36,264 nucleotides of DNA from Pseudomonadota bacterium (lineage in GTDB: Bacteria > Pseudomonadota > Gammaproteobacteria > GCA-001735895). The notes beneath the pieces are model-generated. The model did not search any database and was not told where the DNA came from. It saw only the letters and a program-made list of their open reading frames with translations. The stretch is taken from contig JADFMY010000018.1 in assembly GCA_022563685.1 (NCBI GenBank), positions 1 through 36,264 of the forward strand. The letters are read 5' to 3'. Positions 6,974 through 16,194 of this stretch are shown here, one piece after another (positions within the stretch are counted from its first letter, which is position 1; every line of letters starts with the position of its first letter). Position numbers and translations under genes: made by a program.

Positions 6974-7019
6974 TCAATTCACCTTCAACCCGGCCGGATT
7001 AATAACTCTGGTGATTCTG

Positions 7020-9637: not shown

Positions 9638-10900
9638 TTAAATCGAGGGTCGTGCTTTGGTCTTATCGGCCCTGGAATCGAACCATTTCTTCGCTTCTGC
9701 ATCCCAGTCGTCGAGACGCACGTAAGAACTCTGGCGCGGACTATCGATCATATTCGGATCAACCTCGATACCGATCCCTTCGAGGAAATTGGGTAGACCG
9801 ATGCGTTCGATCATTTCTCCGCAGCGTTCGTGCTCTAAAGCGTTTTCCGACCAGAAGTCGATCACCTCTTCGGCCATTTCGGTGAGCTTTTCAAAATCCT
9901 GATCGGTTTTAAGCGGCATAAATGGCACGATTACGGTTCCCATCAGGTCGCCGATTTTGAGCGTGCGCTTACCGCCGATACAAATTGTTGCACCTTTATC
10001 CAGGCCCGGAGAAAGAGCCTTGGGTAAAGCGTTAAGGCAGTGCATACACCGCACGCAGTTGCGATTATCGACCTCGAGGGTATCGTCGTCGTTGATTTTT
10101 AATGCCTTGGTTGGGCAACGGGACACAATATTCTCGTTGATATAGTCATGTCCTTTCAACTTGATATAAGCCTTAAATGCTTCCTGATCCACGCGCATAT
10201 CGTCACGCCAGGTGCCGATAATGGCAAAGTCCGAGCGTTCGATGGCATTCTGGCAATCGTTACCACAGCCTGATATTTTGAATTTAAACTTGTAAGGCAG
10301 CGCGGGACGGTGGATATCGTCGGTGAAGTTATTGATCACAGTGCGATGAATGCGCTGTTCATCCAGGCAGGACTGCTCGCACCTGGCGGCACCGATACAG
10401 GACATCGAGGTACGCACATCGGGGCCGGCACCGCCGAGATCGAAACCATATTCGTTTATTTCGTCGAAAAAACTCTGCGTACCCTTGGTCGTGGTACCGA
10501 TAAACATGATATTTCCGGTCTGACCGTGAAACGTGATCAGTCCGGAACCGTATTTTTCCCAGCTATCGGCGAGTTTTCTCAGTGTGTCGGTAGTGTAATG
10601 ATTGCCGGCAGGTGGCTGCACGCGAAGGGTATGAAATTCTTTCGATTCTGGAAATTTGTCGGCAACTTCTGAAAAACGCGGGATGACCCCTGCGCCATAA
10701 CCATAGATTGAAACCGTACCGCCTTTCCAGTACCCCTTTCGAGTTTCATACGAATGCTCGAGTTGTCCTAGCAGACTATTGGCGACGCCGTTGATGCGCT
10801 GATCAGGGTGCTGGTCGCGCAATCGCTTGATACCGCTGATAAAACTGGGCCAGGGTCCATTCTCGAGTTCGTCGAGCATCGGCGTATCATGTTTGTCCAT
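9638..10900 (-). CDS. dsrA: DsrA, reverse sulfite reductase alpha subunit
   Basis: This 420-residue alpha subunit is the first gene of the operon. Siroheme-cluster ligands appear as C-I-G-A-A-R-C-E-Q-S-C and S-G-C-G-N-D-C-Q-N-A. The ferredoxin insert has R-C-P-T-K-A-L and C-V-R-C-M-H-C. Sulfite-binding basic residues are expected in the T-L-R-V-Q-P-P region. Length and motif order match DsrA throughout. Neighbouring dsrEFH and dsrL indicate the oxidative direction. The ATG at 10900 has an upstream GGGAGAG-type ribosome site (minus strand of 10907-10914). Confidence 0.97.
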   Translation of the reverse strand: MDKHDTPMLDELENGPWPSFISGIKRLRDQHPDQRINGVANSLLGQLEHSYETRKGYWKGGTVSIYGYGAGVIPRFSEVADKFPESKEFHTLRVQPPAGNHYTTDTLRKLADSWEKYGSGLITFHGQTGNIMFIGTTTKGTQSFFDEINEYGFDLGGAGPDVRTSMSCIGAARCEQSCLDEQRIHRTVINNFTDDIHRPALPYKFKFKISGCGNDCQNAIERSDFAIIGTWRDDMRVDQEAFKAYIKLKGHDYINENIVSRCPTKALKINDDDTLEVDNRNCVRCMHCLNALPKALSPGLDKGATICIGGKRTLKIGDLMGTVIVPFMPLKTDQDFEKLTEMAEEVIDFWSENALEHERCGEMIERIGLPNFLEGIGIEVDPNMIDSPRQSSYVRLDDWDAEAKKWFDSRADKTKARPSI

Positions 10901-11030: not shown

Positions 11031-11081
11031 GAGTATTCCTGTGTGCTTACCCCGATAGAGATATACCTCGACCGGGGCTCA

Positions 11082-11128: not shown

Positions 11129-11518
11129 ATGCAAGCTTTCAAATTATCCAGTCGATCCGATTTCGACACCTGGTCGAAGTGGAAACTATCGCTTTATTCA
11201 CCCGATCGAATCGAGCGTTTGCGCAAGCTGATTGAAATTAGCCCTGACGAGCCGTTGCAGCCAAAGCCACGCGCGAAATTGCGACAAAATATCAATGATT
11301 TCAATTTTGCCTTATATCGAATTAACGATTCTGATAATTTCGATTTAGCTGCCCTATCGCGGCTCGGCAGGCTATTTGGCCTGTCACAACTGGATGCCAA
11401 TCTGTGTGCCGAAGACGACCGTATTACGATTATTACCGATCGCTCGGGCCAGGATGACGCAGACCATCGGCGAGTCTACTATCGCGCACGGTATTATAGC
11501 CGGATCGCATTGACCTGA
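11129..11518 (+). CDS. Uncharacterised 129-aa protein divergent from dsrA
   Basis: I do not recognise this protein. It is soluble, has no signal peptide or membrane segment, and is rich in charged residues. The middle part (P-R-A-K-L-R-Q-N-I-N-D-F-N-F-A-L-Y-R-I) and a helix-like L-S-R-L-G-R-L-F-G-L-S-Q-L-D stand out. It is the first gene of a plus-strand group (129-aa, 62-aa, Cas6-like, 67-aa) with short gaps (9 bases to the next gene). No good ribosome site precedes its ATG. The coding call rests on its length, on the tight spacing with the next gene, and on the lack of any better frame on either strand. Confidence 0.65.
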   Translation: MQAFKLSSRSDFDTWSKWKLSLYSPDRIERLRKLIEISPDEPLQPKPRAKLRQNINDFNFALYRINDSDNFDLAALSRLGRLFGLSQLDANLCAEDDRITIITDRSGQDDADHRRVYYRARYYSRIALT

Positions 11519-11527
11519 GAGCACCAC

Positions 11528-11716
11528 ATGCTATACCTCAGTGAAGTTTTGATACAAAACCCCGACCTTGAGTCGTTCGATGAATTAAAGCAGGTCATCG
11601 TCGAACGGGCGAAGCAGGGTGAAGTGTTTTTTCAAATGGATATTAAACCGCCGTATTTCGATACGCCGCCCAGATGGGAAGATCAACTCGAAGCTGTGTT
11701 TAGCTCGGTCAGATAG
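11528..11716 (+). CDS. Uncharacterised 62-aa protein
   Basis: This small soluble protein has an amphipathic first half (S-E-V-L-I-Q-N-P-D-L-E-S-F-D-E-L) and a second half with F-F-Q-M-D-I-K-P-P-Y-F-D-T-P-P. I cannot place it in a family. It begins 9 bases after the 129-aa gene and its stop is one base before the ATG of the Cas6-like gene, so all three are very likely cotranslated. This packing is the best evidence that it is real. It may be a partner of the Cas6-like protein, which is inference only. Confidence 0.62.
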   Translation: MLYLSEVLIQNPDLESFDELKQVIVERAKQGEVFFQMDIKPPYFDTPPRWEDQLEAVFSSVR

Positions 11717-11717
11717 C

Positions 11718-12392
11718 ATGTACTGGCAGGAAACCGAAGACGACCCGGACACCTACCAAATTTCGAACCAGGTGGTGGATCTGGTATTTGCGATTCAATG
11801 CAAGACCCTGCCACTCGATCATGGTAATGCCCTGTACCAGGCCGTGATCGGGTGCATTCCCTGGCTAGGCGATGAATCCCAGGCAGCGATTCATCAAATT
11901 CACGTGGCCGAATCGGCGCACGGCTGGAATCGACCAAAGGATCCATCGAGTGAACTGCTCTGGCCCTCGCGCAGGACCCGGCTGGTACTCAGGGTGCCGC
12001 AGCATCGGGTGGAAGATTGCCAGACGCTCACCGGCCGGACGCTCGATATCGAGGGTCATGAATTGACTATAGGTCCGGCAAAGCAAAAGCTGCTCAGCAA
12101 ATTAACCACGATATTCGCCCGTTACGTCGATACCGGTGGCAGCGATCTGGACCAGGAATTCATCCGGAATATGGCCGATATTTTGCAACGGCGGAAAATT
12201 CACCTGAACAAAATGATGAGTGGTCTGCTGGTAAAACACAGAACCGATGATGGGTATCTGCTGACGCGTAAGCTGATGCTGGCGGGCCTGAGTATCGAAG
12301 ACTCGGTTCGATTGCAGCAACAGGGAATAGGTAACAGGCAATTGATGGGAATAGGTATATTCCTGCCACATAAGGGGATAGATGCGATCTAG
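11718..12392 (+). CDS. Cas6-like RAMP protein (Cmx6 type), orphan
   Basis: The 224-residue product from the ATG at 11718 resembles the Cas6/Cmx6-type proteins annotated with type I-MYXAN systems. It has an N-terminal V-V-D-L-V-F-A-I-Q-C strand, I-H-Q-I-H-V-A-E-S-A-H-G-W with histidines that could be catalytic, T-R-L-V-L-R-V-P-Q-H-R, and a C-terminal glycine-rich loop (G-I-G-N-R-Q-L-M-G-I-G-I-F-L-P-H-K-G-I) typical of RAMP folds. Cas6 proteins cut CRISPR precursor RNA. No CRISPR array or other cas gene is in the window, so its substrate may be something else. The frame is open back to 11619, but that part overlaps the 62-aa gene. Family assignment is from memory of such sequences and not verified. 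Confidence 0.75.
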   Translation: MYWQETEDDPDTYQISNQVVDLVFAIQCKTLPLDHGNALYQAVIGCIPWLGDESQAAIHQIHVAESAHGWNRPKDPSSELLWPSRRTRLVLRVPQHRVEDCQTLTGRTLDIEGHELTIGPAKQKLLSKLTTIFARYVDTGGSDLDQEFIRNMADILQRRKIHLNKMMSGLLVKHRTDDGYLLTRKLMLAGLSIEDSVRLQQQGIGNRQLMGIGIFLPHKGIDAI

Positions 12393-12475
12393 CGTGGCTA
12401 GTACCACTAAGGTGATAGTGACCAGGACAATTAAACAGTCTATATTGAACCGATATTTGCCAGGAGACACTCCGG

Positions 12476-12679
12476 ATGCCCGACAAAAAAGCCCTGATCG
12501 CCGAACTGATCGCGATGCAAAAGAAGTTTATCGACTATGAACACGAGCATGGTGTTGAAATGAAAGACTATTTTGCTCCCGCCCCTGGCCATCCACTCGA
12601 AGGATACAAGGAGACCTTCACGGAAAAAGCGATGGAACTGGTCGATCTCGCGCACAAGGAAAAGGGATCGCATCGCTAA
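12476..12679 (+). CDS. Small 67-aa conserved-looking protein
   Basis: This is a 67-residue soluble, charged protein with an AGGAG ribosome site about nine bases before its ATG. A helical first part (K-K-A-L-I-A-E-L-I-A-M-Q-K-K-F-I) leads to Y-E-H-E-H-G-V and the turn P-A-P-G-H-P-L-E-G-Y. It resembles small uncharacterised proteins I have seen in sulfur-oxidizing bacteria, but I know of no function. It lies 83 bases after the Cas6-like gene and may be in the same transcript. Confidence 0.7.
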   Translation: MPDKKALIAELIAMQKKFIDYEHEHGVEMKDYFAPAPGHPLEGYKETFTEKAMELVDLAHKEKGSHR

Positions 12680-12882: not shown

Positions 12883-13356
12883 TTAAGCGAATCCTGGCGG
12901 ATCCCACTGATCCATCATTTTCTGACGAGCGGCATCGAGCCGCTCGGACATCAACGCCGCGAAACGCTTGAACAATTCGTAGCCGAATTTCGGGTCTTCC
13001 TCGCAACGCGCCAATATGACGCTGCCGTCAAACTGGAGCAAATCCGAATTTTCCACCGCCCGGGCCTGGAAGCTCCACCGGTAAGGCGGAATTAGCCAGG
13101 ACCAGCCGAGTATTTGATCTTCGCCCAAAGCTTGCATTTCAAGCGGCGGCCCCATCAGCGCCGGCACCTGGACAGATACTTGCCCATTGCGCAACAGATA
13201 GAATTTATCTGCATGCTCTCCATGATGAAACAAGACATCGCCCTTCTTGATCCGCAGCACCGTGGCGGAGTTCGACAGGAACTTCATAAAGCTGCCATCC
13301 AGTCCGTTGAAAAATGCATGGTTGACCAGATAATCTTCGATCGACTGCTTACTCAT
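12883..13356 (-). CDS. Stand-alone cyclic nucleotide-binding domain protein
   Basis: This 157-residue protein has the cNMP-binding beta-roll of the Crp family: K-K-G-D-V-L-F-H-H-G-E-H-A-D-K-F-Y-L-L, then G-Q-V-S-V-Q-V-P and a core ending L-G-W-S-W-L-I-P-P. After the domain only a helix (F-A-A-L-M-S-E-R-L-D-A-A-R-Q) remains. No DNA-binding helix-turn-helix is present, so it is not a normal Crp/Fnr regulator and may act through protein contacts. Two ATGs are possible (13371 and 13356); I prefer 13356, which has GGAG nine bases upstream. It is monocistronic and has its own terminator. The ligand cannot be read from the sequence. Confidence 0.85.
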   Translation of the reverse strand: MSKQSIEDYLVNHAFFNGLDGSFMKFLSNSATVLRIKKGDVLFHHGEHADKFYLLRNGQVSVQVPALMGPPLEMQALGEDQILGWSWLIPPYRWSFQARAVENSDLLQFDGSVILARCEEDPKFGYELFKRFAALMSERLDAARQKMMDQWDPPGFA

Positions 13357-13371
13357 TTCTCTTGTCTCCAT

Positions 13372-14523: not shown

Positions 14524-14748
14524 TTTCCAACTTCCGTACACCCCGATAAATGCGTTTCAATCAGATTATAAATAGTACGCATCTTCGCAATGTTTGGTTA
14601 GTTGTCGATTATGGCCCAGGAGTCTTGCCCACATGCATCATTGTATGTTGCTGGCCAGGCGTTCAAGTATCGACCATCGCTGCGATCCGGGCATCGCGGG
14701 TTCGTTAAATTAATATAGGTGGTCGGACACAGTTCAAAGACGAATTCC

Positions 14749-15462
14749 ATGACAAGCGCAGACAAAAAGCTTCCTCAAAAATCGAGCAAGGCCGCAATTG
14801 ACGCGTTTCTAGAAAAAGTCAGTTCAACCCCGGTTACCAAGTCTGCCGGGGAGCGCGGGCGTTTGATATTTGCGATGGACGCAACTGCCAGTCGAGAACC
14901 CACCTGGGACCGGGCCTGTCATATTCAGGGCGAGATGTTCAAGGAAACAGCTGCTCTCGGCGGTTTGGATATTCAGCTTTGCTACTACCGTGGATTTGGT
15001 GAATTTAAAGCCAGTCAGTGGCTGTCTTCTTCGGATGAGTTGCTAAAACGCATAACAAGTGTATCTTGCCGGGGTGGTTATACGCAGATTGAAAAAGTAC
15101 TGCATCACGCGATAAAGCAGACAAAACAAAAGAAAGTTCAGGCGCTCGTGTTTGTTGGCGACTGCATGGAAGAAGACGTAGACCAGGTGTGCCAGTTGGC
15201 GGGTGAGTTGGGAATGCTCGGTGTGCCCGCTTTCCTGTTTCATGAAGGAGCAGAGCCTGTGGCACAACGGGCGTTTAAGCAGATCGCGCGGTTAACCGGT
15301 GGTGCCTATTGTTCCTTCGACGCCACGAGCGCCGGACAATTGCGCGACCTGTTGAGAGCAGTTGCCGTCTATGCAGCTGGCGGTCAGTCTGCATTGCAAG
15401 ATTTCAGTAAAGATCGCAGCGAGGTGGTGCGGAAACTAACGCGCCAGTTGGGCAAGGACTGA
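14749..15462 (+). CDS. VWA-domain protein
   Basis: From the ATG at 14749 the product has 237 residues; a GTG at 14719 would add ten. A von Willebrand A fold begins at G-R-L-I-F-A-M-D-A-T-A-S, a D-x-T-x-S variant of the metal-binding MIDAS motif. It continues through I-Q-L-C-Y-Y-R-G-F-G-E-F, C-R-G-G-Y-T-Q-I with the second MIDAS threonine, and A-L-V-F-V-G-D-C. There is no signal peptide, so it is probably cytoplasmic. It is followed 3 bases later by a membrane J-domain gene, and the two likely work together, perhaps as a chaperone-type pair. The precise role is unknown. Confidence 0.85.
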   Translation: MTSADKKLPQKSSKAAIDAFLEKVSSTPVTKSAGERGRLIFAMDATASREPTWDRACHIQGEMFKETAALGGLDIQLCYYRGFGEFKASQWLSSSDELLKRITSVSCRGGYTQIEKVLHHAIKQTKQKKVQALVFVGDCMEEDVDQVCQLAGELGMLGVPAFLFHEGAEPVAQRAFKQIARLTGGAYCSFDATSAGQLRDLLRAVAVYAAGGQSALQDFSKDRSEVVRKLTRQLGKD

Positions 15463-15465
15463 CCC

Positions 15466-16194
15466 ATGATACGGCTGTTACTTTTACTTGGCGTTGCGGC
15501 AGTATTGTTCATATTTATCCGTTGGTTATTTCGCCAACCCCGTAGTGTTTACTGGCAAGGGATAGCAATCCTGCTAGCGATAGGACTGTTACTGATGGTT
15601 GCTACTGGTCGGGCGCATTGGCTGACAGCGGTATTTGCCGCATTTCTACCGTTTATACGAGCCATTCTTGCTTTGCTCAGCAGTATTCCGCTCCTCAAAC
15701 GTGTGCTGGCTGGTATGGGCACTGCACAATCAGCGGCGGAACCGAGTGGCGGGCAAACATCTTCCGTGCAAAGTAGATATATACGCATGAGCCTGGCACA
15801 CGATTCAGGAGACATCAATGGAGAGATTTTAGAAGGACAGTTCAAGGGCCGGGCGCTCAAGCAACTGAGTCTTGAAGAGTTGCTGCAACTGTTGCGCGAA
15901 TGTCAGGAGGACGAAGAGTCCGTTGCCTTGCTACAGGCATATCTCGACCGGGTGTATGAGGACGAATGGCGACAACAAGCTGGCGCACACGGGCAACAGG
16001 AGACATTCAGCGGATCGGGCGAGATGTCACGCGAAGAGGCGCTGCAAATATTAGGCATATCATCAGACGCCAGCGAAGAGGAGATTATCGACGCACATCG
16101 GCGGCTGATGCAAAAACTACATCCGGACCGTGGCGGATCTGCTTATCTCGCGGCGAAGATTAATCTGGCAAAAGAGACGTTACTGGCCAGGTAG
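15466..16194 (+). CDS. Membrane-anchored J-domain (DnaJ-like) protein
   Basis: This 242-residue protein starts with two or three hydrophobic segments (about residues 1-85, e.g. [12 protein letters not shown] and an alanine/leucine-rich stretch near 60-72). A cytosolic linker follows. The C-terminal J domain begins at [12 protein letters not shown] and carries the Hsp70-activating HPD at 219-221 in L-H-P-D-R-G-G-S. This arrangement resembles DjlA/TIM14-type tethered J proteins. It should recruit DnaK to the inner membrane. It is cotranslated with the VWA gene before it (3-base gap). Confidence 0.88.

Follow-up and report, generated by a model that had tools for sequence, protein, structure and literature searches.

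The closest described relatives of the protein examined here are Cas6 proteins of CRISPR systems. It shares its fold with the type I-MYXAN Cas6 (Cmx6) and passes both profile cut-offs of that family (TIGR02807 and PF09559). The closest solved structure is the Cas6 of a type I-B CRISPR-associated transposon (PDB 8fcj and 8fcu, Z 24), which acts inside a Cascade-transposon complex, unlike the protein described below. The locus itself is the dsr operon, whose genes are unequally expressed, with dsrEFH and dsrC transcripts exceeding those of dsrA (PMC3397948). A neighbor of this operon, dsrQ, has already been described (Lenk et al. 2012), and the passage of PMC7596348 that cites that work places a TauD-like gene on the opposite strand upstream of dsrA, which is the same gene and the same place as in our loci. 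We found that a Cas6 without a CRISPR system is an almost constant neighbor of dsr in the Gammaproteobacteria.

The window, by which we mean the whole stretch of DNA analyzed, is 36,264 nucleotides of contig JADFMY010000018.1 from a Pseudomonadota bacterium (GCA_022563685.1). The dsr operon, dsrABEFHCMKLJOP, lies on the minus strand and runs from dsrA (9638-10900), its first gene, down to about position 298. Diverging from it on the plus strand are a dsrQ remnant of 129 amino acids (11129-11518), y62 (11528-11716, 62 amino acids), the 224-amino acid cas6 (11718-12392), which sits inside a longer frame, and v67 (12476-12679), a small conserved protein of 67 amino acids. The ORF coordinates give a gap of 9 bases between the dsrQ remnant and y62 and of 1 base between y62 and cas6, in agreement with the four small genes, gaps, and head-to-head placement with dsrA that the first-pass annotation had described. 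It had called the two genes before cas6 unknown. This description held for y62, a small conserved protein that accompanies dsrQ in most loci, and failed for the 129-amino acid gene. The latter encodes a TauD-like Fe/2-oxoglutarate dioxygenase that kept its N terminus and last residues and lost the central catalytic part, including the HxD metal motif (WHTDG), while the closest relative (L031) has an intact dsrQ of 299 amino acids with WHSDG. The damage either arose recently by deletion or is an error of the assembly. Two further observations were made in the window. Near the cluster, the 162-amino acid product of a minus-strand gene (12883-13371) has a cyclic-nucleotide-binding domain but matched no DNA-binding domain. 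Two genes at 14719-16194 form a pair: the product of one is weakly VWA-like, and the other encodes a membrane protein whose C terminus has a DnaJ/Pam16-like domain.

The 224-amino acid protein scored 121.5 bits against NCBIfam TIGR02807 cas6_cmx6 (cut-off 98.85) and 185.1 bits against Pfam PF09559 Cas6 (cut-off 26.7), and PADLOC Cas6 models matched it as well. An AlphaFold2 model built from an alignment of 30 relatives had a mean pLDDT of 90.1. This predicted structure matched the 8fcj Cas6 with Z 24.2 over 196 residues at 2.2 Å and Pyrococcus Cas6 with Z 14-16. The 44 best rows of the structural comparison were all CRISPR proteins, in the main Cas6. Thus, by profile and by modeled structure, the protein is a genuine Cas6 with the RAMP (tandem ferredoxin-like) fold. 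The first-pass annotation had proposed a Cas6-like RAMP protein and had named the lack of a RAMP fold as evidence against it; the fold was present in the predicted structure.

The proposed catalytic residue, His35 (codon at 11820-11822 on the plus strand), and G211 and G213 of the glycine-rich loop were identical in 60 of 60 dsr-linked proteins. Seven of seven cyanobacterial plasmid Cas6 proteins annotated as I-MYXAN, six of which adjoin cas3, also carry the histidine and the glycine-rich loop, and the features common to the two groups are the histidine (in a DH motif), R92, R135, Q200, and this loop. The two groups are only about 23-28% identical, and the N-terminal W3, the NGWxRP segment, R86, K165, and H218-K219 are conserved in the dsr-linked group only. 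In a maximum-likelihood tree whose root is not known, a branch with 100/99 support separated the dsr-linked proteins from seven CRISPR Cas6 proteins. Beside the dsr-linked cas6 there is no cas3, cas8, cas7, cas5, or array, in contrast to I-MYXAN systems. A separate observation concerns the Gloeobacter morelensis plasmid pGMOR1 (L209), where a Cas6/Cmx6 gene shares an operon with genes for PAPS-reductase-family and cupin proteins. Within 5 kb no further cas gene was present, which makes it another possible non-CRISPR Cas6.

The histidine bears on whether the protein cuts RNA. It could be a sequence-specific RNA binder, a riboregulator or RNA chaperone, that controls the dsr or cas6-operon mRNA without cutting it, with the histidine kept for binding. 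Not every Cas6 has this histidine, and in the profile alignment the position of His35 is occupied by Asn in the closest solved relative, the I-B transposon protein 8fcj. However, the dsr-linked set is very divergent, with identities down to about 31%, and a residue that is invariant across such a set behaves as expected for a catalytic one. We therefore consider a non-cutting binder unlikely and regard the protein as probably an active RNase.

Next, the distribution of Cas6 was compared with that of dsrA, as seen in three sets of genomes. In a class sample of 369 genomes, Cas6 was found in 118 and dsrA in 117; 110 genomes had both, 8 had Cas6 only, 7 had dsrA only, and 244 had neither (p ~1e-74). 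A second set, made up of the window's own genome and 190 related ones, overlaps with the class sample; here Cas6 and dsrA were each found in 85 genomes, and 78 genomes had both. With one genome for each other family of the class, 48 had both, 3 had Cas6 only, 4 had dsrA only, and 94 had neither. Of the 66 pairs found on a single contig, 65 were arranged head to head, with a median gap of 1.5 kb. A scan of named GTDB genomes gave 536 encoding stretches, of which 80 were kept, and among these 80 were Halochromatium, Allochromatium warmingii, Chromatium weissei, Thiohalocapsa, Lamprobacter, Leucothrix, Thiothrix, and Venteria. The placement beside the sulfur-oxidation operon that had been pointed out for the window is, therefore, general across the class (110 of 369 genomes with both genes).

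Most of the inspected exceptions to this co-occurrence were contig breaks. The Cas6-only contigs inspected carried the cluster and had a contig end or a dsrA fragment where dsrA was expected, and most dsrA-only contigs stopped just upstream of dsrA. Two exceptions had more sequence: G537 is a genuine exception at the locus, as about 7.8 kb upstream of dsrA lacked Cas6 and none was found in the 86%-complete assembly, and G674 had 1.8 kb without Cas6. In four genomes (G149, G137, G072, and G082), Cas6 stood apart from dsr and its usual partners were missing beside it; in G149, it lay 41 kb away from dsrA. In a phylum sample of 299 genomes, the 4 Cas6 matches were all beside dsrA and all in the same class, and none of the 48 dsrA carriers of other classes in that sample had Cas6. 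No phage homologues were found. The tie between Cas6 and dsr is close to complete in the Gammaproteobacteria.

The other feature that sets this Cas6 apart is its independence of CRISPR. The first-pass annotation had noted that no array and no other cas gene lay nearby and had named type I-MYXAN arrays and cas genes in the vicinity as what would speak against recruitment. Within the reach of our tools, neither was found: the window has no CRISPR-like array, and the window's own genome (2.99 Mb, 92% complete) gave no match to Cas1 or to Cas7/DevR in searches that did give matches in control genomes. Across 176 loci, array-like repeats were limited to one doubtful repeat, TTTTGACAAGGGGACATGTCCCC, in three spaced copies from position 14598 on, at the edge of L090 and away from cas6. 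Another possible explanation is that the protein matures crRNA in trans for arrays elsewhere in the genome. This would fit its Cas6/Cmx6 family, the name that NCBI's model would give it, and the presence of Cas1 somewhere in 27 of 85 carriers. However, Cas1 was found in 32 of 106 non-carriers, so that there was no association (p=0.88), and the proposed check of whether the gene group co-occurs with dsr gave the same answer with or without cas1. Several single-contig genomes had Cas6 with no Cas1 match (G059, G074, G084, G120, G122, G149, and G172). The gene is also fixed beside dsrA, while the plasmid I-MYXAN Cas6 genes mostly adjoin cas3 or cas8 and their products branch apart. Maturation in trans is thus largely refuted and very improbable; the 224-amino acid protein belongs to the Cas6 family but not to a CRISPR-Cas system.

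The genes around cas6 form a conserved cluster. In 159 loci, some from genomes counted twice, the class order was dsrA diverging from dsrQ-y62-(z235)-cas6-rspA-v67, followed by piuC-like and u106 genes; z235, between y62 and cas6, was present in some loci only. In three more distant genomes, dsrA is followed by the order cas6-rspA-dsrQ. The protein encoded by rspA falls in the DsrC/TusE family (PF04358, TIGR03342). In 99 of 107 copies, it had no cysteine in its final 15 residues; most copies ended in RKGGY, and the tail of the form that follows cas6 is GLPESRRKGGY. Such forms without C-terminal cysteines are named RspA by other authors. They resemble the dispersed DsrC homologues without both cysteines of the Solemya velum symbiont (PMC4287430). 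Unlike those, rspA is a frequent partner immediately after cas6. It is missing at the window locus, and the window's own genome has two other DsrC-family matches, of which one is dsrC and the second is located at C25. The link of dsrQ to dsr is wider than that of Cas6, since dsrQ-y62 without Cas6 was seen at four dsr loci from other classes. Therefore, Cas6 is probably a later addition to an older dsrQ-dsr arrangement.

The broken dsrQ and the loss of rspA in the window could be taken to mean that Cas6 is a functionless relic, a hitchhiker carried along with dsr. This reading is contradicted by selection: dN/dS for cas6 was 0.07-0.17 in the ten pairs with usable dS, which demonstrates purifying selection, and the residues named above are invariant. 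Also, Cas6 was kept in genomes of 1.0-1.1 Mb and was retained when unlinked from dsr. We give the relic reading almost no credence.

Two conserved structures near dsr were considered as candidate targets of Cas6. An EM search of the region upstream of dsrA found the palindrome CTATCCC-N4-GGGATAG, with a score of 865 compared to about 89 for shuffles, in 99 of 104 loci. The window has it as TTACCCCGATAGAGATAT at 11047-11064, between dsrA and dsrQ. The same search found a related motif before v67, and a weaker operator-like site, GTACCACTAAGGTGATAG (score 10.3), lies upstream of v67 in the window at 12401-12418. Further copies of the palindrome were nearly absent from the 1.8 Mb of loci, and complete genomes have few of them. 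In about 33 loci, the distance between the palindrome and a -10-like box of dsrA is constant at 60-61 bp, with a related site between the two; this spacing places the palindrome upstream of the presumed dsrA start. Deviations read on the cas6 strand were more commonly C/A mismatches that break pairs than G-U. In G149, the palindrome stays about 150 bp upstream of dsrA although cas6 is far off. Because of the fixed spacing, the pair-breaking deviations, and the arrangement in G149, the palindrome was rejected as a Cas6 hairpin and is best read as DNA, a putative operator of a dsr regulator common to dsrA and the cas6 side.

Most loci have a strong GC-rich hairpin right after dsrC, in the dsrC-dsrM gap (mean z -2.8, n=90), and this was the second candidate. 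It varies in sequence, is weak in the window (6974-7019), and occurs for example in L043, L046, and L061. It is absent in G079, and it is also found in dsr loci of other classes without Cas6 (L203-L205). A role as a target specific to Cas6 is therefore unsupported; the hairpin may help to raise dsrC transcripts above the downstream ones. The motifs found between cas6 and rspA and in the remaining dsr gaps were only ribosome-binding sites or gene starts, and Rfam gave nothing over the window and four loci beyond one tRNA in L085. No conserved hairpin specific to Cas6 was found in dsr or cas6 transcripts.

These data divide the original proposal, in which the protein was recruited to process a cellular RNA, perhaps the dsr mRNA. 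Recruitment agrees with a CRISPR-independent Cas6 tied to dsr, and it is this near-constant neighborhood in the absence of a CRISPR system that suggests a takeover to act on the cell's own RNA in sulfur metabolism. The dsr mRNA as the substrate is a minority option and speculation. A fuller version seems slightly less probable still: an exapted Cas6, as a dedicated factor for RNA processing or RNA decay in sulfur oxidation, would cut dsr or cas6-operon transcripts, possibly controlled by RspA in the part of a sulfur-status sensor, and so set the unequal Dsr levels.

A somewhat better alternative to dsr transcripts is a general RNA such as tRNA, rRNA, or an unlinked small RNA, with the dsr link reflecting metabolic need and not dsr mRNA processing. 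DsrEFH and DsrC are homologues of the TusBCD/TusE relay of tRNA thiolation, and Cas6 might for this reason read the thiolation state of an RNA. The partner from the DsrC/TusE family and the lack of a dsr hairpin specific to Cas6 carriers are in line with a general RNA. So are the neighbors of two stand-alone cas6 genes, which we named by eye: what we take to be a divergent RNase III-era gene pair in G149 (L085) and an rlmB-like gene in G072 (L183). The neighbor in G082 (L186) is presumably a YeeE/YedE-like gene. However, unlinked cas6 was seen in four genomes only, so small a set of neighbors may reflect chance, and nothing ties Cas6 to any given RNA. A general RNA is thus possible, though we would not favor it.

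The mechanism we prefer, with modest confidence, is that Cas6 cleaves a structured cellular RNA and thereby supports Dsr-dependent sulfur oxidation. Cas6 would have been captured once, or very early, in a dsr-carrying lineage of the Gammaproteobacteria (in the GTDB sense) and then have become fixed beside dsrA, where dsrQ, y62, rspA, and v67 complete the cluster. The protein still shows the Cas6 fold in its model, together with a histidine of the catalytic type and the glycine-rich loop for RNA binding, and by analogy with Cas6 on CRISPR repeats it would bind and cut its RNA. Candidate substrates would be transcripts from the dsr or cas6 operons, tRNAs, and small RNAs that are so far unannotated. 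Against this explanation, the search for a substrate was without result, cas6 is unlinked in four genomes, and dsr carriers of other classes manage without Cas6. Computation shows the family, the predicted fold, the conserved residues, purifying selection, independence from CRISPR, and linkage to dsr; we infer catalytic activity, a host-RNA substrate, and a Dsr-specific role, and we regard the protein as a domesticated, probably active RNase that acts on cellular RNA for the Dsr pathway.

In the literature searched, we found no orphan or stand-alone Cas6 beside dsr, and the dsr literature searched did not mention Cas6. More generally, the searchable literature described no Cas6 that works outside CRISPR and is a constant component of a metabolic locus. 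The gene would be annotated as a CRISPR protein, though it is in nearly every dsr-positive gammaproteobacterium examined, with purple sulfur bacteria and 1.1-Mb genomes among the carriers. Its role is testable in purple sulfur bacteria, since Cas6 is present in Allochromatium warmingii and dsr genetics is established in the related A. vinosum, for which mutants have been described (PMC3368242). If Cas6 acts on host RNA, sulfur oxidation in these bacteria would include an unrecognized control step at the level of RNA.
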